Assembly (NCBI RefSeq): GCF_002006755.1
Contig: NZ_MVDO01000224.1
Span: 1 to 35,740, forward strand
From: Wohlfahrtiimonas larvae
Lineage (GTDB): Bacteria; Pseudomonadota; Gammaproteobacteria; Cardiobacteriales; Wohlfahrtiimonadaceae
Direction of reading: 5' to 3'
DNA: 35,740 bases
Part shown: positions 13,369 through 21,470 of the stretch, one piece after another
How the letters are laid out: every line of letters starts with the position of its first letter
Numbering within the stretch: position 1 is the first letter of the stretch
Notes under the pieces: model-generated
Database searches by the model: none
What the model was told of the DNA's origin: nothing
Seen by the model: the letters and a program-made list of their open reading frames with translations, nothing else
Translations under genes and position numbers: made by a program

Positions 13369-15270
13369 TCATCGGCCACGTCCACCGCCGCCACCTGAAC
13401 CACCACCCGATGATCCTCCTCCGCCTGAGCCTGAGCCTCGCCCACTATTCCCCCCAGAACTTGGTTTTGCGCTCGCCGTTTTAAATGAAGAAGAACTACT
13501 AATAGAACGAGCAGACAAAACACCTATCTTTTGACGATTCTCATACTGAATAGAATATAATTTTTTATACAAGGCTAACCATTTTTTATCAACATCAAAA
13601 ATAATTGCATAAGGAAGATATTCCTCAAATAAATCTGGTGTAATCAGATGGTATTCATCAGCTTTTGTATATTCCAAGAAATGCTTAAACTCTAAAACTT
13701 TCTGCTGATCATCACAATATTCGGGTCTAATCATCACCATTATTTTTCCGTACCATGCAATAACAGTATTGAAAAGTAAAATGATAACAATTACTAATAC
13801 AGATGCTTTAAAATTTGCAGACCAACTAAATCCACCCCATAAATCTGTAAACATCAAAGGCATTATGCTGAAAATAGAGCCGAAAAATAATAATACGATA
13901 CACCAAAAGATTCTCTCAGAGACACTTGTAAACGATCGCCCATCTAATAGAGAGCTTAATCCTATCCATAATATTAAACACCCAAAAAATGCAAATAAGA
14001 TTATTAGATAGTTTAAGCCTGAAATAATTGTAAAGCTCAAAGTGAAACAAATGCCCCATAAAATGAAAGCTGATAATGCAAAAAATGGAAACAGTGGGCG
14101 ATAATATTTAGAGCCATCATAGATCATTCTTTCTGTCATAAGCTTTAATGCGCTTTCTAAGATAGGGTTATATTTAGCATAGGAAACTTTGCTTCGACCA
14201 TTGATCTCCATCACTGATAAAAATTCACGCTGCCCCTGCGTTAAGCTTTTATCTTGATTAGGTATGATTGGCTTTATTTCTATTGTTTTCTCTGACTGAT
14301 TAAATGATATCAATCCCTTATGTGCTAGATCCACTAGAAAAGCCACCCTAAATCTTTCCACATTCCCCATATAATTTTTGCCTGCTAAAAACATTAAGGT
14401 GTATAAAGAAAATTCTGGTGGAGAAAATCTCACTACAAATGCACGTAAACTCTTCGGTTTTCTATATACATAAATTAATGCACCTAATAGCCAATAACAA
14501 AACATCACAATTAGTATTCCCATCAATGCTATATGAATGGGCTGCACAAATGACGGGAAGTAACTCAGGATTTTTTCGACTACCCCACCAATATATCCTG
14601 AATCATTACTGGGGATGATTCCTTTGGTAAAACCAGTCGCGATGGTTAAACCTTGACCATTACCGATCATTTCTGGTGCTATAAACTCAATTTTTTGCGG
14701 TGATACTTCCGTCACAATTGCTCTAGAATTATCTCCTGCTTGCCCATAATATCCTGCAGATTGTATTGCCTTAACTGAGTTTGGCAAAACTAACGTAACT
14801 TTTGCCTTTTCAATGGGAAACTGCCAACCATTACCAATGGCATTGAAATACAATTCATCATAGCTAAGAAAGCCCCGAATGTGATTAGAACTTTGCCAAT
14901 GGAATTGGTAAATATTTTGACCTTTAGGAATATAATTTTTGGGGTGGTCATATTTAGCACCCGTATAAATTTCAAACAGATCACCATTGTCTTCCACCCA
15001 ATAGTTTTCAGACTCACCATTACGAGTGACACTCAACACTTCAATGGGTGTTTCAATCTCTTGTTTATACATAGAATAACGACTAGGAATATCCCGAATA
15101 ATGCCTAAACGCACATCCTTATGATCAATGTTCATTTCTATCGTTTCAACCACATCAATTTTGCCATCTTCTAGCACTGTGATATTCACATCATAATTTT
15201 TGATGACATCAGCTAATGAGATATTTAATAGACACCAACATAAAAAGAATATTATTATTTTTCTTATCAT
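13369..15270 (-). CDS. DUF2207 membrane protein, downstream copy
   Basis: 633 residues. The signal peptide (1-20, cleavage after ISLA) leads a periplasmic DUF2207 domain (DVIKNYDVNITVLEDGKIDVVETIE, GLTIATGFTKGI). A membrane segment lies near residue 245-270, then a cytosolic region and further hydrophobic segments around 395-510. The C-terminus is a Gly/Ser-rich tail of about 30 residues ending GGGGGRGR. DUF2207 proteins are commonly encoded beside LemA, as here; their function is unknown. The ATG overlaps the stop of the upstream paralogue (ATGA), so translation is coupled. The two copies share order, domain plan and tail, which indicates an old tandem duplication. Confidence 0.85.
   Translation of the reverse strand: MIRKIIIFFLCWCLLNISLADVIKNYDVNITVLEDGKIDVVETIEMNIDHKDVRLGIIRDIPSRYSMYKQEIETPIEVLSVTRNGESENYWVEDNGDLFEIYTGAKYDHPKNYIPKGQNIYQFHWQSSNHIRGFLSYDELYFNAIGNGWQFPIEKAKVTLVLPNSVKAIQSAGYYGQAGDNSRAIVTEVSPQKIEFIAPEMIGNGQGLTIATGFTKGIIPSNDSGYIGGVVEKILSYFPSFVQPIHIALMGILIVMFCYWLLGALIYVYRKPKSLRAFVVRFSPPEFSLYTLMFLAGKNYMGNVERFRVAFLVDLAHKGLISFNQSEKTIEIKPIIPNQDKSLTQGQREFLSVMEINGRSKVSYAKYNPILESALKLMTERMIYDGSKYYRPLFPFFALSAFILWGICFTLSFTIISGLNYLIILFAFFGCLILWIGLSSLLDGRSFTSVSERIFWCIVLLFFGSIFSIMPLMFTDLWGGFSWSANFKASVLVIVIILLFNTVIAWYGKIMVMIRPEYCDDQQKVLEFKHFLEYTKADEYHLITPDLFEEYLPYAIIFDVDKKWLALYKKLYSIQYENRQKIGVLSARSISSSSSFKTASAKPSSGGNSGRGSGSGGGGSSGGGSGGGGGRGR
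13371..13437. repeat. 67-bp GC-rich repeat, copy A (3' end of downstream DUF2207 gene)
   Basis: Matches 15269-15335 at 62 of 67 positions by eye. It encodes the Gly/Ser tail and runs through the stop codon region (GGCCGATGA on the coding strand). It is strikingly GC-rich in an AT-rich region. Confidence 0.85.
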
Positions 15271-17219
15271 CGGCCACCTCCACCGCCGCCACCTGATCCA
15301 CCACCCGATGATCCACCACCGCCTGAGCCTGAACCGCCGCCACTAGAACCGCCTCCGCCTGATGATGAAAAACCTGAAGATGATCGTCCCATACTTGGGC
15401 TAGACATTGCACGGCTAAAAGTTGAAGAACTGGATCGAGCCATATGTAATGCACCTTGCTGTTGGCTTATTTGGTAATTTTTTGGATATAGCGATTGATA
15501 GAGTTTTATCCACTTTTTCTCAACGCCAAACAAAATAGAATATGGTAAATACTCTTCAAATAAATTAGGCGTAATTAATTCATACTCCGCTTTTTTTGTA
15601 TAGACTAAAAAATGTTTAAATTCTAACAGTGCTTGCTTGTGGTCCACATAATGGGCTTTCACATAATAACGATACTTTGATAATTGGATAAATATCACCA
15701 TCAGTACCAATAATGATAACCATACCAATCCATAACTACATAAATAAGTCATCATAGATAAAGGAGTATTAGCTATTTCCGTCATCATGAAATATAGCGG
15801 CACACCACCAAATGCAAAGAAAAACATAAAAACTGGCAACCCTTTCAACAATAATGATGCTTTGCCAAACAACTGATCTTTTTCATTAATCTTAGGAATT
15901 TGATTCATAATTATAGAGTTCAAAATCAGCATAGGAATGACTATAAATACTAATGAAAAATAGATTTCTGCAGATAAATAAATTGAAAATGATAACAGCA
16001 TCACTGCCATTACAATAATGCCAATAATCAAAAAGATGGGGGCTATTTTTTTGTAACACTCATCCGCTAAATCTTGAATATGTGTTTTCAATAACTGAAT
16101 ACCATGAGAAAATGCACCATTATATTTTTCTAATGAAATGACAGGAATGCCTCTTCTTTGTAAGCTCACAATAAATTGTAATTCTTCTGGGCTTAATAGT
16201 GCCCTGTGTTGATCTGTTAGTTTCTTTCTAACCTTAATACTTTTAGTTGTTTCATTAAAAGATAAAAGCCCCAATGCCTGAAACCTAACCAGCATTGCTA
16301 GCATAAATTTACTATGATTCTCAGGCGAATAAAGTGCACACGCGAGGTCAAATGGTATATTCGGTGGTGCGTATCTCACCATAAAAGCACGCTGGCTTTT
16401 AGGCAATATTTTGGTGTAAATCATAGCTGCTAAACGCTTATACAGCAACATCACAGCCATCATAATCCCCAATATAATATTTAAAGGCTGAACAAAACTT
16501 GGAAAATAATCCAAAGCTTTTGCCATCCAAACATCATACCAATTGGGTTCTATGCTCGGAATAATTCCTTTCGTAAATCCTGTCGCAACCGTAAAACCTT
16601 TACCATTGCCTAATATTTTTGGTGATGTAAATTGAATTTCTTGTGGGGATTTCTGTGTTGTCTGAGCCTGATCAATCGCTCCTCTCACACCATAATAAGC
16701 CGCTGATTGAATTGCACTGACAGACTTTGGCAACTTCAATGTAACTGTCGCAACTATAATGGGTAAACGCCAATTATGGCCAATTGCATTGATGTATAAC
16801 TCATCATAATTTTCAAAACTACGAATGTGATTTTGACTCTGCCAATGGATCACAAAAGTGTGTTTACCTTTATCCAAATAGTTATCCACAACGTTATCAA
16901 CGGAACCTGTGAATATCTCCACATTTCCATATTGATTCTCTGTCCAAAAATTTTCTGGCTGCCCATTACGAGTTACAGTTAGAACATTGACTGGCGTCTC
17001 TACTCGCTTATTCATAAAGTAATAACTTTTTGGAATTTCTCGAGTTATACCCAGTTTAATTTGTTCATGATTGGTTGTGATTTCAATTGTTTCTACAACA
17101 TCAATCGTTCCATCTTCCAATATATTAATCCTAGAATCATAATGATCTATTTGATCTGCCCATGTAATATTGAATAAGAACATCACTGATAGAAATATAT
17201 ATTGGGCAACTATTTTCAT
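15267..17219 (-). CDS. DUF2207 membrane protein, upstream copy
   Basis: 650 residues, paralogous to the next gene. Signal peptide 1-21 (cleavage after ITWA) precedes a periplasmic DUF2207 domain starting DQIDHYDSRINILEDGTID and ending near GFTVATGFTKGI. Then come a membrane segment, a cytosolic stretch, three or four more hydrophobic segments (about 390-530), the conserved HALLEFKHFL-like region (here QALLEFKHFLVYTKKAEYELI), and a long Gly/Ser tail ending GGGGGGR. It follows lemA by 12 nt and overlaps the next gene by four nt. The LemA/DUF2207 association suggests a membrane complex at the cell envelope, but no biochemical role is established. Confidence 0.85.
   Translation of the reverse strand: MKIVAQYIFLSVMFLFNITWADQIDHYDSRINILEDGTIDVVETIEITTNHEQIKLGITREIPKSYYFMNKRVETPVNVLTVTRNGQPENFWTENQYGNVEIFTGSVDNVVDNYLDKGKHTFVIHWQSQNHIRSFENYDELYINAIGHNWRLPIIVATVTLKLPKSVSAIQSAAYYGVRGAIDQAQTTQKSPQEIQFTSPKILGNGKGFTVATGFTKGIIPSIEPNWYDVWMAKALDYFPSFVQPLNIILGIMMAVMLLYKRLAAMIYTKILPKSQRAFMVRYAPPNIPFDLACALYSPENHSKFMLAMLVRFQALGLLSFNETTKSIKVRKKLTDQHRALLSPEELQFIVSLQRRGIPVISLEKYNGAFSHGIQLLKTHIQDLADECYKKIAPIFLIIGIIVMAVMLLSFSIYLSAEIYFSLVFIVIPMLILNSIIMNQIPKINEKDQLFGKASLLLKGLPVFMFFFAFGGVPLYFMMTEIANTPLSMMTYLCSYGLVWLSLLVLMVIFIQLSKYRYYVKAHYVDHKQALLEFKHFLVYTKKAEYELITPNLFEEYLPYSILFGVEKKWIKLYQSLYPKNYQISQQQGALHMARSSSSTFSRAMSSPSMGRSSSGFSSSGGGGSSGGGSGSGGGGSSGGGSGGGGGGGR
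15269..15335. repeat. 67-bp GC-rich repeat, copy B (3' end of upstream DUF2207 gene)
   Basis: Partner of 13371-13437, with five mismatches. It covers the Gly/Ser tail codons and the ATGA stop/start junction between the two DUF2207 genes. The direct orientation, 1.9 kb apart, could support recombination deleting or duplicating one gene. Confidence 0.85.
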
Positions 17220-17231
17220 TATCCTTCCAAT

Positions 17232-17798
17232 TTACAAAGAAACAGTTGGTGCATTACGCTCAGTAGAATCATCCACTGCAAAATATTCAATCATTGGAAA
17301 ATGAAACATTGAAGCAATAATCACATTTGGGAATTGTTGTTTATATGTTAAATAATGGCGAACTGTTGCATTGTAATAACGCCTTGCTTTACTAATATCA
17401 TCTTCAACTTTGACCAAAGATTCATGTAATTGCTTAAAGCTTTGGTTTGCCTTAATCTCAGGATAATTTTCAACTAAAACTAGTAGCTGACTGATTCGAT
17501 CACTCAACTTTAATTCATTTTTCCCTAAATCACCTACAGACAAATTACCATTCAAACCTTGTGAACGAAGCTCTACAATTTCTTTTAAAACATTGGCTTC
17601 ATAGTCGCGAGCACCTTTTGTGACAGAAACCAACATTGGAATTAAGTCGTAGCGCTTTTTTAAGAAAACATCCATACCTGCAAATGCTTCTTTAGACATT
17701 TGTTGGTGTTTGATAAGTTGATTATAAATAGAAACCATCCCCATAAGCACCAACATTGAGCAGGCTGAAATCATGATGAAAATTGCTGTAATTGTCAT
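17232..17798 (-). CDS. lemA: LemA family protein
   Basis: 188 residues. An N-terminal membrane segment (about residues 4-25) is followed by the LemA helical domain: AFAGMDVFLKKRYDLIPMLVSVTKG, an EVVELR-like segment (here EIVELRSQ), LLVLVENYPEIKANQSF and ISKARRYYNATVRHYLTYKQQFP. Most of it would be a long antiparallel helical bundle outside the membrane. LemA proteins are widespread and of uncertain function. It is the first gene of a three-gene operon with two DUF2207 proteins. The ATG is preceded by ATGGATTAACT, a weak ribosome-binding site, and TATAATTA about 30 nt upstream is a likely -10. Confidence 0.92.
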   Translation of the reverse strand: MTITAIFIMISACSMLVLMGMVSIYNQLIKHQQMSKEAFAGMDVFLKKRYDLIPMLVSVTKGARDYEANVLKEIVELRSQGLNGNLSVGDLGKNELKLSDRISQLLVLVENYPEIKANQSFKQLHESLVKVEDDISKARRYYNATVRHYLTYKQQFPNVIIASMFHFPMIEYFAVDDSTERNAPTVSL

Positions 17799-18573: not shown

Positions 18574-18589
18574 TTATGCCTTGAGTTAC

Positions 18590-18622
18590 TTGGGTTCCCT
18601 CACCCCAATTGAAATAAAAAGG
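18590..18622 (+). promoter_or_regulatory. preQ1-I riboswitch (translational control of yhhQ)
   Basis: Stem P1 is TTGGG (18590-18594) with CCCAA (18604-18608). The 9-nt loop TTCCCTCAC ends in the A-C expected to contact the ligand (C18603). An A-rich strand (TTGAAATAAAA) leads to AAGG at 18619-18622, which can pair with CCT of the loop (18598-18600) to close the H-type pseudoknot. From CCCC to AAGG the length (20 nt) and spacing equal the Thermoanaerobacter tengcongensis preQ1-I aptamer as I recall it; the loop is one nt shorter. AAGG is also the ribosome-binding site of the gene starting at 18629, so preQ1 binding should shut off translation. The downstream product is a queuosine-precursor transporter, the classic target. 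Confidence 0.85.
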
Positions 18623-19185: not shown

Positions 19186-19587
19186 ATGAAAAAACCTCTG
19201 ATTGATACTGTAATTTTACAGTATGCTTCCGCACACCATGAGTTCCCAATTGATTTAATTCGCAATCAACATCCTGAATTAAAAACAGCAGTGAAACATG
19301 TGGTGCAATTACCTATTTTATGCCAAGCAAGCCAAAACCCTAAAGCAGGCTCAAGCATCAGCATTAGTTATATTGCAGATCAAGTATTACTTGAGCTATT
19401 TTCTTTAGAGAAATACATCAAAGCATTCATTGGTCATAAAACTGTGCGAGATTTAGAATACTTCACACAAGCTATTGCTATTGAATGCCAAAATGCTTTA
19501 AAAGTTGAAGTAACCGTACAAGCAGATATTATTTTAGAAGGATTGAATCAATCCCAAGTGATTACTGTCACCGTTCCACAACTATAG
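19186..19587 (+). CDS. Small QueF-like (T-fold) protein with altered catalytic residues
   Basis: 133 residues, soluble, co-directional with yhhQ 17 nt away, so under the same riboswitch-headed transcript. Residues 42-84 (LPILCQASQNPKAG, ISYIADQVLLELFSLEKYI, FIGH) align with the unimodular QueF of Bacillus subtilis (SLCPKTGQPD, ISYIPD..MVESKSLKLYL, FRNH) as recalled. The cysteine that forms the thioimide is kept (Cys46), as is the glutamate that holds the 7-deazaguanine (Glu70). The catalytic Asp appears as Lys53, and the His-Glu pair as Arg88-Asp89. The family call rests on pattern and context. If right, it probably is not a normal preQ0 reductase. Start: only ATG in range, with a weak ribosome-binding site. 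Confidence 0.65.
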   Translation: MKKPLIDTVILQYASAHHEFPIDLIRNQHPELKTAVKHVVQLPILCQASQNPKAGSSISISYIADQVLLELFSLEKYIKAFIGHKTVRDLEYFTQAIAIECQNALKVEVTVQADIILEGLNQSQVITVTVPQL

Positions 19588-19621: not shown

Positions 19622-20575
19622 TTATTGCTCTGTTTGTAATGAATAATTTACTGTAGAAATTGCATCTGACAACTGTGGCGCAAACATAGATGATGAGCTA
19701 CATGTCATCACTAAATTTGTTGTCGCCCTTGTCATTGCTACATATAAAAGTTGTGCTTCATTTTCCACGCTTTCATAACACACATTTTTATTACCAACCT
19801 CAAAAATACAGACCAAAGCAAATTCTAATCCTTTACTTTTATGCATGGTCATTACATGAACACCAATGCCTTCTACTTCTTCTCCATGTGTAGGGATTCC
19901 ATTATTACGCAGAGCATCTTTAATTATATTGATAGATTTATTATTACGACACAATACAGCCATATGATGCCAATCAAGGCCATTTTTCTGATGTTCATAT
20001 AACGTTTCTATAATTTTTCTAACTTCATGATGCATACTTGGCAAGTTAATTAAAACAGGAACATCACCATTCAGTCCAGCACCTACTGGTTCCAATAAAG
20101 GAATTGCATCTTCATCACTCTCTTTACGCTCAACCAATAACTGTTCAGCAAATAATTTAGCAACAGTTAAAATTTCTTTTGTATTACGATAATTCAATTT
20201 AAGAATAACGGTTCTTCCTCGAGCATTAATACCAACTTTTGAGAATACTAATTTACGTTTATCCTTACTATAAATAGATTGTGCATCATCATATAAAACT
20301 AATAAACAAGGATTATCCGGGTTCACCATCTGTACAATAAGTTTATACCAAGCATCTTCAAAATCATGTCCTTCATCAATCAAAATTGCATCATATTGAC
20401 CTTTAGGGATAATACCAGTTTCTGCATGATCTATAACTTTTTGGACATTCTCTTCAAACATACTGCTTAAGTTAGCATTACGTGATTTTGGAATATTATA
20501 AGTTGATAACTGTTGGCTACACCATTGATGAAATGTTCTAACATGAACTTTATGATCTAAACTCTTCTGAGCCAT
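19622..20575 (-). CDS. Frameshifted C-terminal half of a NERD/UvrD-like helicase
   Basis: 317 residues of superfamily I helicase lacking the P-loop. Visible motifs are II (AILIDEGHDF, residues 63-72), III (LYDDAQSIY), IV (KLNYRNTKEI), V (VMTMHKSKGLEF) and VI (LLYVAMTRAT). The Walker A motif is in the preceding frame (20550-21470), and removing one A from the AAAAA run just before this ATG fuses both into one protein of about 620 residues. On its own this half cannot bind ATP normally. The ATG may simply be an internal Met codon of the original gene. It is a broken gene, a sequencing error, or two subunits re-associating; I favour a disrupted single gene. Convergent with the QueF-like gene. 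Confidence 0.7.
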   Translation of the reverse strand: MAQKSLDHKVHVRTFHQWCSQQLSTYNIPKSRNANLSSMFEENVQKVIDHAETGIIPKGQYDAILIDEGHDFEDAWYKLIVQMVNPDNPCLLVLYDDAQSIYSKDKRKLVFSKVGINARGRTVILKLNYRNTKEILTVAKLFAEQLLVERKESDEDAIPLLEPVGAGLNGDVPVLINLPSMHHEVRKIIETLYEHQKNGLDWHHMAVLCRNNKSINIIKDALRNNGIPTHGEEVEGIGVHVMTMHKSKGLEFALVCIFEVGNKNVCYESVENEAQLLYVAMTRATTNLVMTCSSSSMFAPQLSDAISTVNYSLQTEQ

Positions 20576-21470
20576 TTTTATAATGTAACATATCTGCCAA
20601 AGGGCGATTAAAACATAAAACCAAAATTGGCTTTTGCATAAACTGAGCTAAATGCTCGGCACGATAACCTAAAATCATCGTTTTCCCTGAACCTGCAACA
20701 CCATGAATAATTCGATGCCCATCACCTAAACTTCTCGCCAACTGCTCTTGTTGAATATCCATAATTTTTAAAATATCTGGCAATTCTACTTTAACTTCAG
20801 GATCATCAAACATATCTCTCTGCTCGCCTATACGCAATTCAGGAAAAATATGCCAACGCACTCGATCTATTTGAGGTAAGGTTAAAGGCTGAGCTGGCAC
20901 ATAAGGAAACATTCCCCATAATCGCTCTTGAAACATTTCTAAAGATGAATGACCAGACAACTCATCTTTACAAATCACACAGTGCTCAGGAATGACATTA
21001 CCTAATTCACCTTTATCAAATTCATCTCTCGTAATATTACTCAATACAACACCATAACCATAACTCAATAAAGGTTTGGTCTTAGAGTCTTTCAAATGTA
21101 AGTTTAATTGCGAATCTTTACTCAATAAATTAATCAATGTTAAAACGTAATTACGTGCTTGATTAATTGGGTTAATAACTTCTTTGGGCAGACCTGAATG
21201 ATGATCTAAAATGGTGGCTGTATCTTTATTAATAGATAAAAGCGTTGAAGCTTTCCAGTCTTTGACTTCTAGAACCAATAATCCGCGATAGGGGTGTAAA
21301 ATAACAAAATCCGGATGTAATGATTTTCCGCCAATTGGAACGTCATACCAACAATAGTAATCATCTTCTAATTGTGATTCTAAAATCTTCGCAACATTTT
21401 TTTCACCGGAGGTCATCCGTGGCAAACATTTACTTAATGATGGGATTAATATAGCCATAAAATTAACCAT
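20550..21470 (-). CDS. Frameshifted N-terminal half of a NERD/UvrD-like helicase
   Basis: 306 residues. The N-terminal nuclease-related domain (NERD, about residues 20-125) has DYYCWYDVPIGG, HPDFVILHPYRGLLVLEVKDW and INQARNY, with the Asp and Glu-x-Lys of a restriction-nuclease-like active site. Then comes the start of a superfamily I helicase: Walker A GVAGSGKT (257-264) and CFNRPLADMLHYK. Ten residues later the frame ends at 20550 after an out-of-frame tail. The missing motifs II-VI are in the overlapping +1 frame at 19622-20575. Start at ATG 21470; ATG 21458 is equally possible, and neither has a clear ribosome-binding site. NERD-helicases are thought to act on nucleic acids; some relatives occur near defence genes. 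Confidence 0.72.
   Translation of the reverse strand: MVNFMAILIPSLSKCLPRMTSGEKNVAKILESQLEDDYYCWYDVPIGGKSLHPDFVILHPYRGLLVLEVKDWKASTLLSINKDTATILDHHSGLPKEVINPINQARNYVLTLINLLSKDSQLNLHLKDSKTKPLLSYGYGVVLSNITRDEFDKGELGNVIPEHCVICKDELSGHSSLEMFQERLWGMFPYVPAQPLTLPQIDRVRWHIFPELRIGEQRDMFDDPEVKVELPDILKIMDIQQEQLARSLGDGHRIIHGVAGSGKTMILGYRAEHLAQFMQKPILVLCFNRPLADMLHYKNGSEEFRS

Follow-up and report, generated by a model that had tools for sequence, protein, structure and literature searches.

The forward strand of the Wohlfahrtiimonas larvae window, i.e., the whole stretch of 35,740 nucleotides analysed here (contig NZ_MVDO01000224.1), contains a predicted riboswitch leader, followed by a short transporter gene and then by a QueF-derived gene (Table 1). 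For the transporter, an ATG 6 bases 3' of the riboswitch AAGG was favoured as start codon over the TTG located upstream at 18581. The QueF-derived open reading frame begins 17 bases past the transporter stop codon.

Table 1. Features of the transporter and QueF-derived gene module in the window.
Feature	Position	Strand	Basis or remark
Predicted preQ1 class I type III riboswitch	18590..18622	+	core match; UU, AC and AAGG hallmarks
Riboswitch P1	18590-18594 with 18604-18608	+	type III layout
Riboswitch UU	18595-18596	+	after the 5' P1 strand
Riboswitch AC	18602-18603 (specificity C, 18603)	+	before the 3' P1 strand
Riboswitch A-rich tail and Shine-Dalgarno AAGG	AAGG 18619-18622	+	type III hallmark
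Short QPTR/YhhQ-family (Vut_1, COG1738) transporter, 179 aa	18629..19168	+	PF02592, TIGR00697
QueF-derived T-fold protein, 133 aa	19186..19587	+	profiles, hhalign, predicted fold

The 19-nt core of the leader, TTGGGTTCCCTCACCCCAA (18590-18608), is identical to the core of the E. coli yhhQ leader, and 0 chance matches to it would be expected in the window. The class I type III preQ1 riboswitch of known structure derives from the E. coli yhhQ leader, and this type prefers preQ1 over preQ0 approximately 138-fold (PMC10622847); the sequence of the solved E. coli element is not printed in the text of that paper, and its identity rests on position, hallmarks and the match. The hallmarks of type III, UU, AC and AAGG (PMC11625349), are all present in the window leader, together with the A-rich tail and a yhhQ-family gene downstream. 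Based on sequence analysis, the leader is predicted to be a preQ1 class I type III riboswitch; the earlier note had placed the operon under a preQ1 riboswitch. Rfam made no riboswitch call on the window or on the loci of the gene pair, and RF00522 was silent on the window leader. This silence is no counter-evidence, because the E. coli yhhQ leader likewise goes undetected by RF00522; the model does not cover type III preQ1 riboswitches, which annotation based on Rfam would overlook.

The product of the first gene matches PF02592 with 51.5 bits (cutoff 27.2), which places it in the QPTR/COG1738 (Vut_1) family and bears out the prediction of a co-directional precursor transporter; its score against TIGR00697 (queuosine precursor transporter) is 47.5 bits, slightly below the cutoff of 50.95. 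The E. coli yhhQ gene shares the riboswitch core and encodes a transporter of the same Pfam family, but its product is longer (221 aa against about 180 aa), and in the window the transporter gene is followed by the QueF-derived gene. The short transporter is present in all nine of the pairs described below. Elsewhere, a short QPTR gene without a QueF-derived neighbour is followed by a kinase-like open reading frame (G225, L144:1319-1858; genome 58% complete).

The product of the second gene had been called QueF-like in the earlier note, and profile, alignment and fold analyses agree with this. It matches TIGR03139 (QueF-II; E value 6e-6; 26 bits, cutoff 86.9) and PF14489 (19.1 bits, cutoff 27.3), in both cases below the curated cutoff; PF14489 also matches all nine family members, each below cutoff. 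Comparison by hhalign with 11 canonical QueFs of the same order gave an E value of 2.2e-5 and a probability of 76.5%. The AlphaFold2 model, computed from the nine-sequence alignment, is a T-fold (pLDDT 89.5) that superimposes on B. subtilis QueF (PDB: 4FGC) with Z 12.6 and 2.1 Å over 111 residues, and the matches to archaeal QueF-L (Z 12.5) and FolE (Z 12.1) are effectively tied with it. Because of these ties, the fold alone assigns the protein to the T-fold superfamily, and it is the sequence that places it near QueF; the relationship to QueF is judged weak but real. Among the Pfam and NCBIfam profiles, QueF was the only match of note and FolE gave none, and a sequence search of solved structures returned no significant match. 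GTP cyclohydrolase was considered on account of a weak PHROGs match in four members and was set aside as general T-fold likeness; nor does the Cys loop (C-x-x-S) suggest a FolE-type zinc site.

Fifteen residues are invariant in all nine members: Cys46, Ser49, Asn51, Pro52, Gly55, Ser56, Glu70, Leu71, Phe72, His84, Val87, Arg88, Asp89, Glu91 and Gln95. In the equivalences to QueF, which are taken from sequence alignment, Cys46 corresponds to the catalytic Cys55 of B. subtilis QueF. The nine-member alignment upholds the earlier reading that this Cys is kept and that Arg88-Asp89 occupy the place of His-Glu; in a gap-free segment, they align with His96-Glu97 in every member. Two further assignments stood in part. 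Position 53 had been read as a Lys substituted for the catalytic Asp: there is indeed no acid at the position of Asp62, nor anywhere in loop 46–56 of any member, but the Lys itself varies among members (K, G or A). Glu70 had been taken for the substrate-binding Glu; a Glu is retained there, but it is equivalent to Glu78 of the QueF motif, and the base-anchoring Glu97 is the residue replaced by Asp89. The nearby Glu91 could take over the role of Glu97. Where the NADPH motif of QueF has Lys80 and Lys83, the family has Phe72 and Asp/Glu75, so that both Lys are absent from all nine members, and the C-terminal PRGG segment is absent from the family. To our knowledge, no T-fold enzyme has this residue set.

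The QueF motif is E(S/L)K(S/A)hK(L/Y)(Y/F/W), and a published survey counted proteins lacking any of Cys55, Asp62, Glu97 or this motif as non-QueF (PMC5372742). The family has E-L-F-(S/A)-L-(D/E)-x-Y instead, retaining Glu70 and part of the motif, and the window protein is excluded from QueF by these published criteria, since it lacks Asp62, Glu97 and the full motif. With unimodular QueF (preQ0 reductase, TIGR03139/PF14489; B. subtilis PDB: 4F8B) it has in common the T-fold, the Cys position, the QueF-motif Glu and the queuosine context (Z 12.5-12.6); it differs in the residues above, in the missing C-terminal RGG segment and in a Cys loop longer by one residue. The archaeosine synthase QueF-L (PDB: 5JYX) is likewise a small single T-fold that retains the Cys and has neither NADPH chemistry nor the NADPH motif. 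QueF-L is, however, said to retain the Asp general acid/base (PMC5485725) and acts on preQ0-tRNA in Crenarchaeota, whereas the window protein lacks this Asp, is bacterial and is encoded beside a transporter. Judged by the residue requirements of QueF and QueF-L, it would belong to neither. Its length, which had been thought unusually small, is not very unusual: unimodular QueF has mostly 152–161 aa in the compared genomes and QueF-L has 109 aa. Another comparison is the indirect salvage by queuine lyase QueL (PMC11130926), in which a transporter and an enzyme also yield preQ1 for a canonical TGT, but QueL is of a different protein family.

The pair of transporter and T-fold genes was found in nine genomes, mostly relatives of Wohlfahrtiimonas, in a search that covered several hundred genomes from the class and the phylum, and the recurrence that the earlier note had asked about is thereby established. 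Six carriers belong to one family (G000, the genome of the window, with G004, G007, G013, G015 and G016), G020 and G022 to the same order, and G091 to another family of the class. In a sample of 369 genomes from across the class, two had the pair, the window's own included; in an overlapping sample of 398 from across the phylum, the window's own was the only one. At the thresholds used, plasmids, phages and viral contigs yielded no relatives. The riboswitch element, slightly altered, also precedes the pair in five more genomes, making six in total, all of the window's family; none was seen upstream of the pair in G020, G022 and G091. The genes flanking the pair vary among lineages, with several unrelated neighbourhoods. 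In the window, a LemA and DUF2207 gene pair (15267-17798, minus strand) lies on one side and adjoins the module also in Wohlfahrtiimonas populi, the closest named relative (92% identical). A NERD-UvrD helicase gene (19622-21470, minus strand) is split into two overlapping frames, by frameshift or assembly error; in W. populi it is a single intact open reading frame of 611 aa (L003:5470-7305).

Most members are 43–54% identical to the window protein. For the T-fold gene, comparison of the window with W. populi gave a dN/dS of 0.11, and comparison of two members from another genus gave 0.04; the corresponding values for canonical queF in the same genome comparisons are 0.03 and 0.06. The QueF-derived family is under purifying selection. 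The earlier claim that the catalytic residues were lost holds for the QueF set, which is absent; there has been no decay but a different invariant set, and random decay of the gene is ruled out by dN/dS together with the invariant residues.

A search for other queuosine genes, which had been recommended, revealed canonical QueF, QueC, a full-length QPTR, TGT, QueA and QueG in the genome of the window. Both queF and the queC-QPTR operon are located behind an RF00522 preQ1 riboswitch (L002:1762-1806, minus strand, and L100:666-710, plus strand), and with the type III element at the pair this genome has three preQ1 switches. Given its own QueF and QueC with separate riboswitches, the pair in the window is an extra, third preQ1-regulated unit. 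A normal QueF accompanies the pair in six of the nine carriers. G020, G022 and G091 have the pair without QueF and QueC while TGT and QueA are kept (completeness 91% and 96% for the drafts G020 and G091; 100% in about 10 contigs for G022), so that these bacteria must salvage preQ1, whether or not the QueF-derived protein performs a conversion. The TGTs of these three genomes share the motifs GGLAVGE and DEC, which we take to mark the preQ1-type enzyme, with those of two QueF-bearing genomes, and there is no sign of a queuine-type TGT. In G022, dapD is directly followed by the full-length transporter, whereas relatives have queF in between, and no queF remnant is left. QueF is absent from three of nine carriers and from none of 16 compared pair-less genomes (one-sided Fisher 0.037), and QueC from seven of nine carriers and six of 16 pair-less relatives (0.063); neither test corrects for kinship, and both were run after the split had been noticed.

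Two observations concern other loci. Tandem queF genes followed by a QPTR gene occur in G023 (L083:240-1338), where the second queF keeps CPLTGRPD and HED while its motif ESKSLK has become KNASLV, possibly a further QueF offshoot. In G007, a CRISPR array (RF01317 repeats, 60-base spacing) adjoins the full-length QPTR gene (L102:24-1311).

We propose, at a probability a little under one half (about 0.45), that the two genes form a salvage module in which the T-fold protein processes an imported 7-deazaguanine through Cys46 without the NADPH chemistry of QueF. The short QPTR-family transporter would import the 7-deazaguanine, and the T-fold protein would bind it in the QueF pocket, with Ser49, Asn51, Gly55 and Ser56 together with Arg88, Asp89 and Glu91 standing in for the Asp, the His-Glu and the NADPH-binding Lys of QueF. 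The protein would contribute to the preQ1 supply of TGT without the canonical NADPH-dependent nitrile reduction, and sufficient preQ1 would cause the type III riboswitch to fold and hide the Shine-Dalgarno sequence of the operon. Here, we infer the substrate class, Cys46 as nucleophile, the status of the protein as an enzyme and the preQ1 outcome. The proposal draws on the riboswitch core match and the preQ1-selective riboswitch type, the conservation of the pair in nine genomes, the low dN/dS, the invariance of Cys46, Glu70, His84, Arg88, Asp89 and Glu91 in spite of the sequence divergence, the acid-free loop, the missing Lys pair and the three QueF-less genomes. Against it, the residue set has no parallel among T-fold enzymes known to us; QueF, QueC and a full-length QPTR are also encoded in the window's genome, where the pair is not required as a source of preQ1; preQ1 itself could be imported by the QueF-less genomes, and no riboswitch was seen upstream of their pairs; and in G225 the short transporter occurs without the T-fold gene. 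The missing NADPH and acid residues argue against QueF's own chemistry, and the outcome may still be preQ1, since QueF is absent from three pair-carrying lineages.

A rather unlikely alternative is a divergent QueF, still reducing preQ0 by means of Arg88, Asp89 and other residues, so that the pair would import and reduce preQ0 and could replace QueF. Such a reductase would account for the restriction of QueF-less genomes to pair carriers and for the missing queF of G022, where the full-length transporter is retained, and phage proteins put with QueF-L by HHpred did prove to be linked to preQ1 in phage DNA (PMC6884629). It would have to function, however, without the Asp, the His-Glu, the two Lys and the C-terminal segment; Glu97Gln alone leaves B. 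subtilis QueF at 2% (PMC5372742), and in most carriers it would work beside a normal QueF. The earlier suggestion that the protein does not reduce preQ0 survives in a weaker form: with the QueF catalytic set gone, reduction is less likely, but the three pair carriers that lack QueF leave it some probability.

The protein might instead be a non-catalytic binder, i.e., a cytosolic trap, chaperone or transporter partner that retains preQ0 or preQ1, possibly through a covalent bond to Cys46, and so drives uptake, which we consider improbable. A QueF-type pocket that retains the Cys but has lost the general acid and the hydride-donor site would suit this role, as would the invariable association with a transporter whose family may have further, unknown partners (PMC5372724), and the thioimide of QueF-L with preQ0 is stable to every ammonia source tried (PMC5485725). 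On the other hand, the many invariant polar residues (Ser49, Asn51, His84, Arg88, Asp89, Glu91 and Gln95) resemble an active site more, and canonical QPTR genes in the relatives examined have no such downstream gene. Drift toward a pterin or purine outside queuosine metabolism, or a fading pseudo-enzyme kept by linkage only, is very improbable; the FolE structural tie and the three members without riboswitch might be read in its favour, but the profiles point to QueF and give no FolE, selection is purifying, and the QPTR-family pairing is constant, six of the genomes having a preQ1 riboswitch before the pair.

In its widest form, which we regard as possible but doubtful, the salvage proposal would define a T-fold enzyme class descended from QueF, with a Cys/Arg/Asp site and no NADPH, that turns an imported 7-deazaguanine into preQ1, or into a precursor that can be used, and that has taken the place of QueF in three or more bacterial lineages. 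No account of the QueF-derived protein or of the pair was found in the open-licence papers searched, in line with the earlier view of this locus as a candidate for an undescribed system. Queuosine is a tRNA modification for whose supply animals depend on microbes, and the exchange and salvage of its precursors among bacteria is an active question in which missing salvage genes are expected. Automatic annotation would miss the QueF-derived protein or label it as QueF, leading to wrong pathway predictions. Encoded together with a transporter and a preQ1 switch, this protein is a concrete candidate for an unknown step of queuosine salvage.
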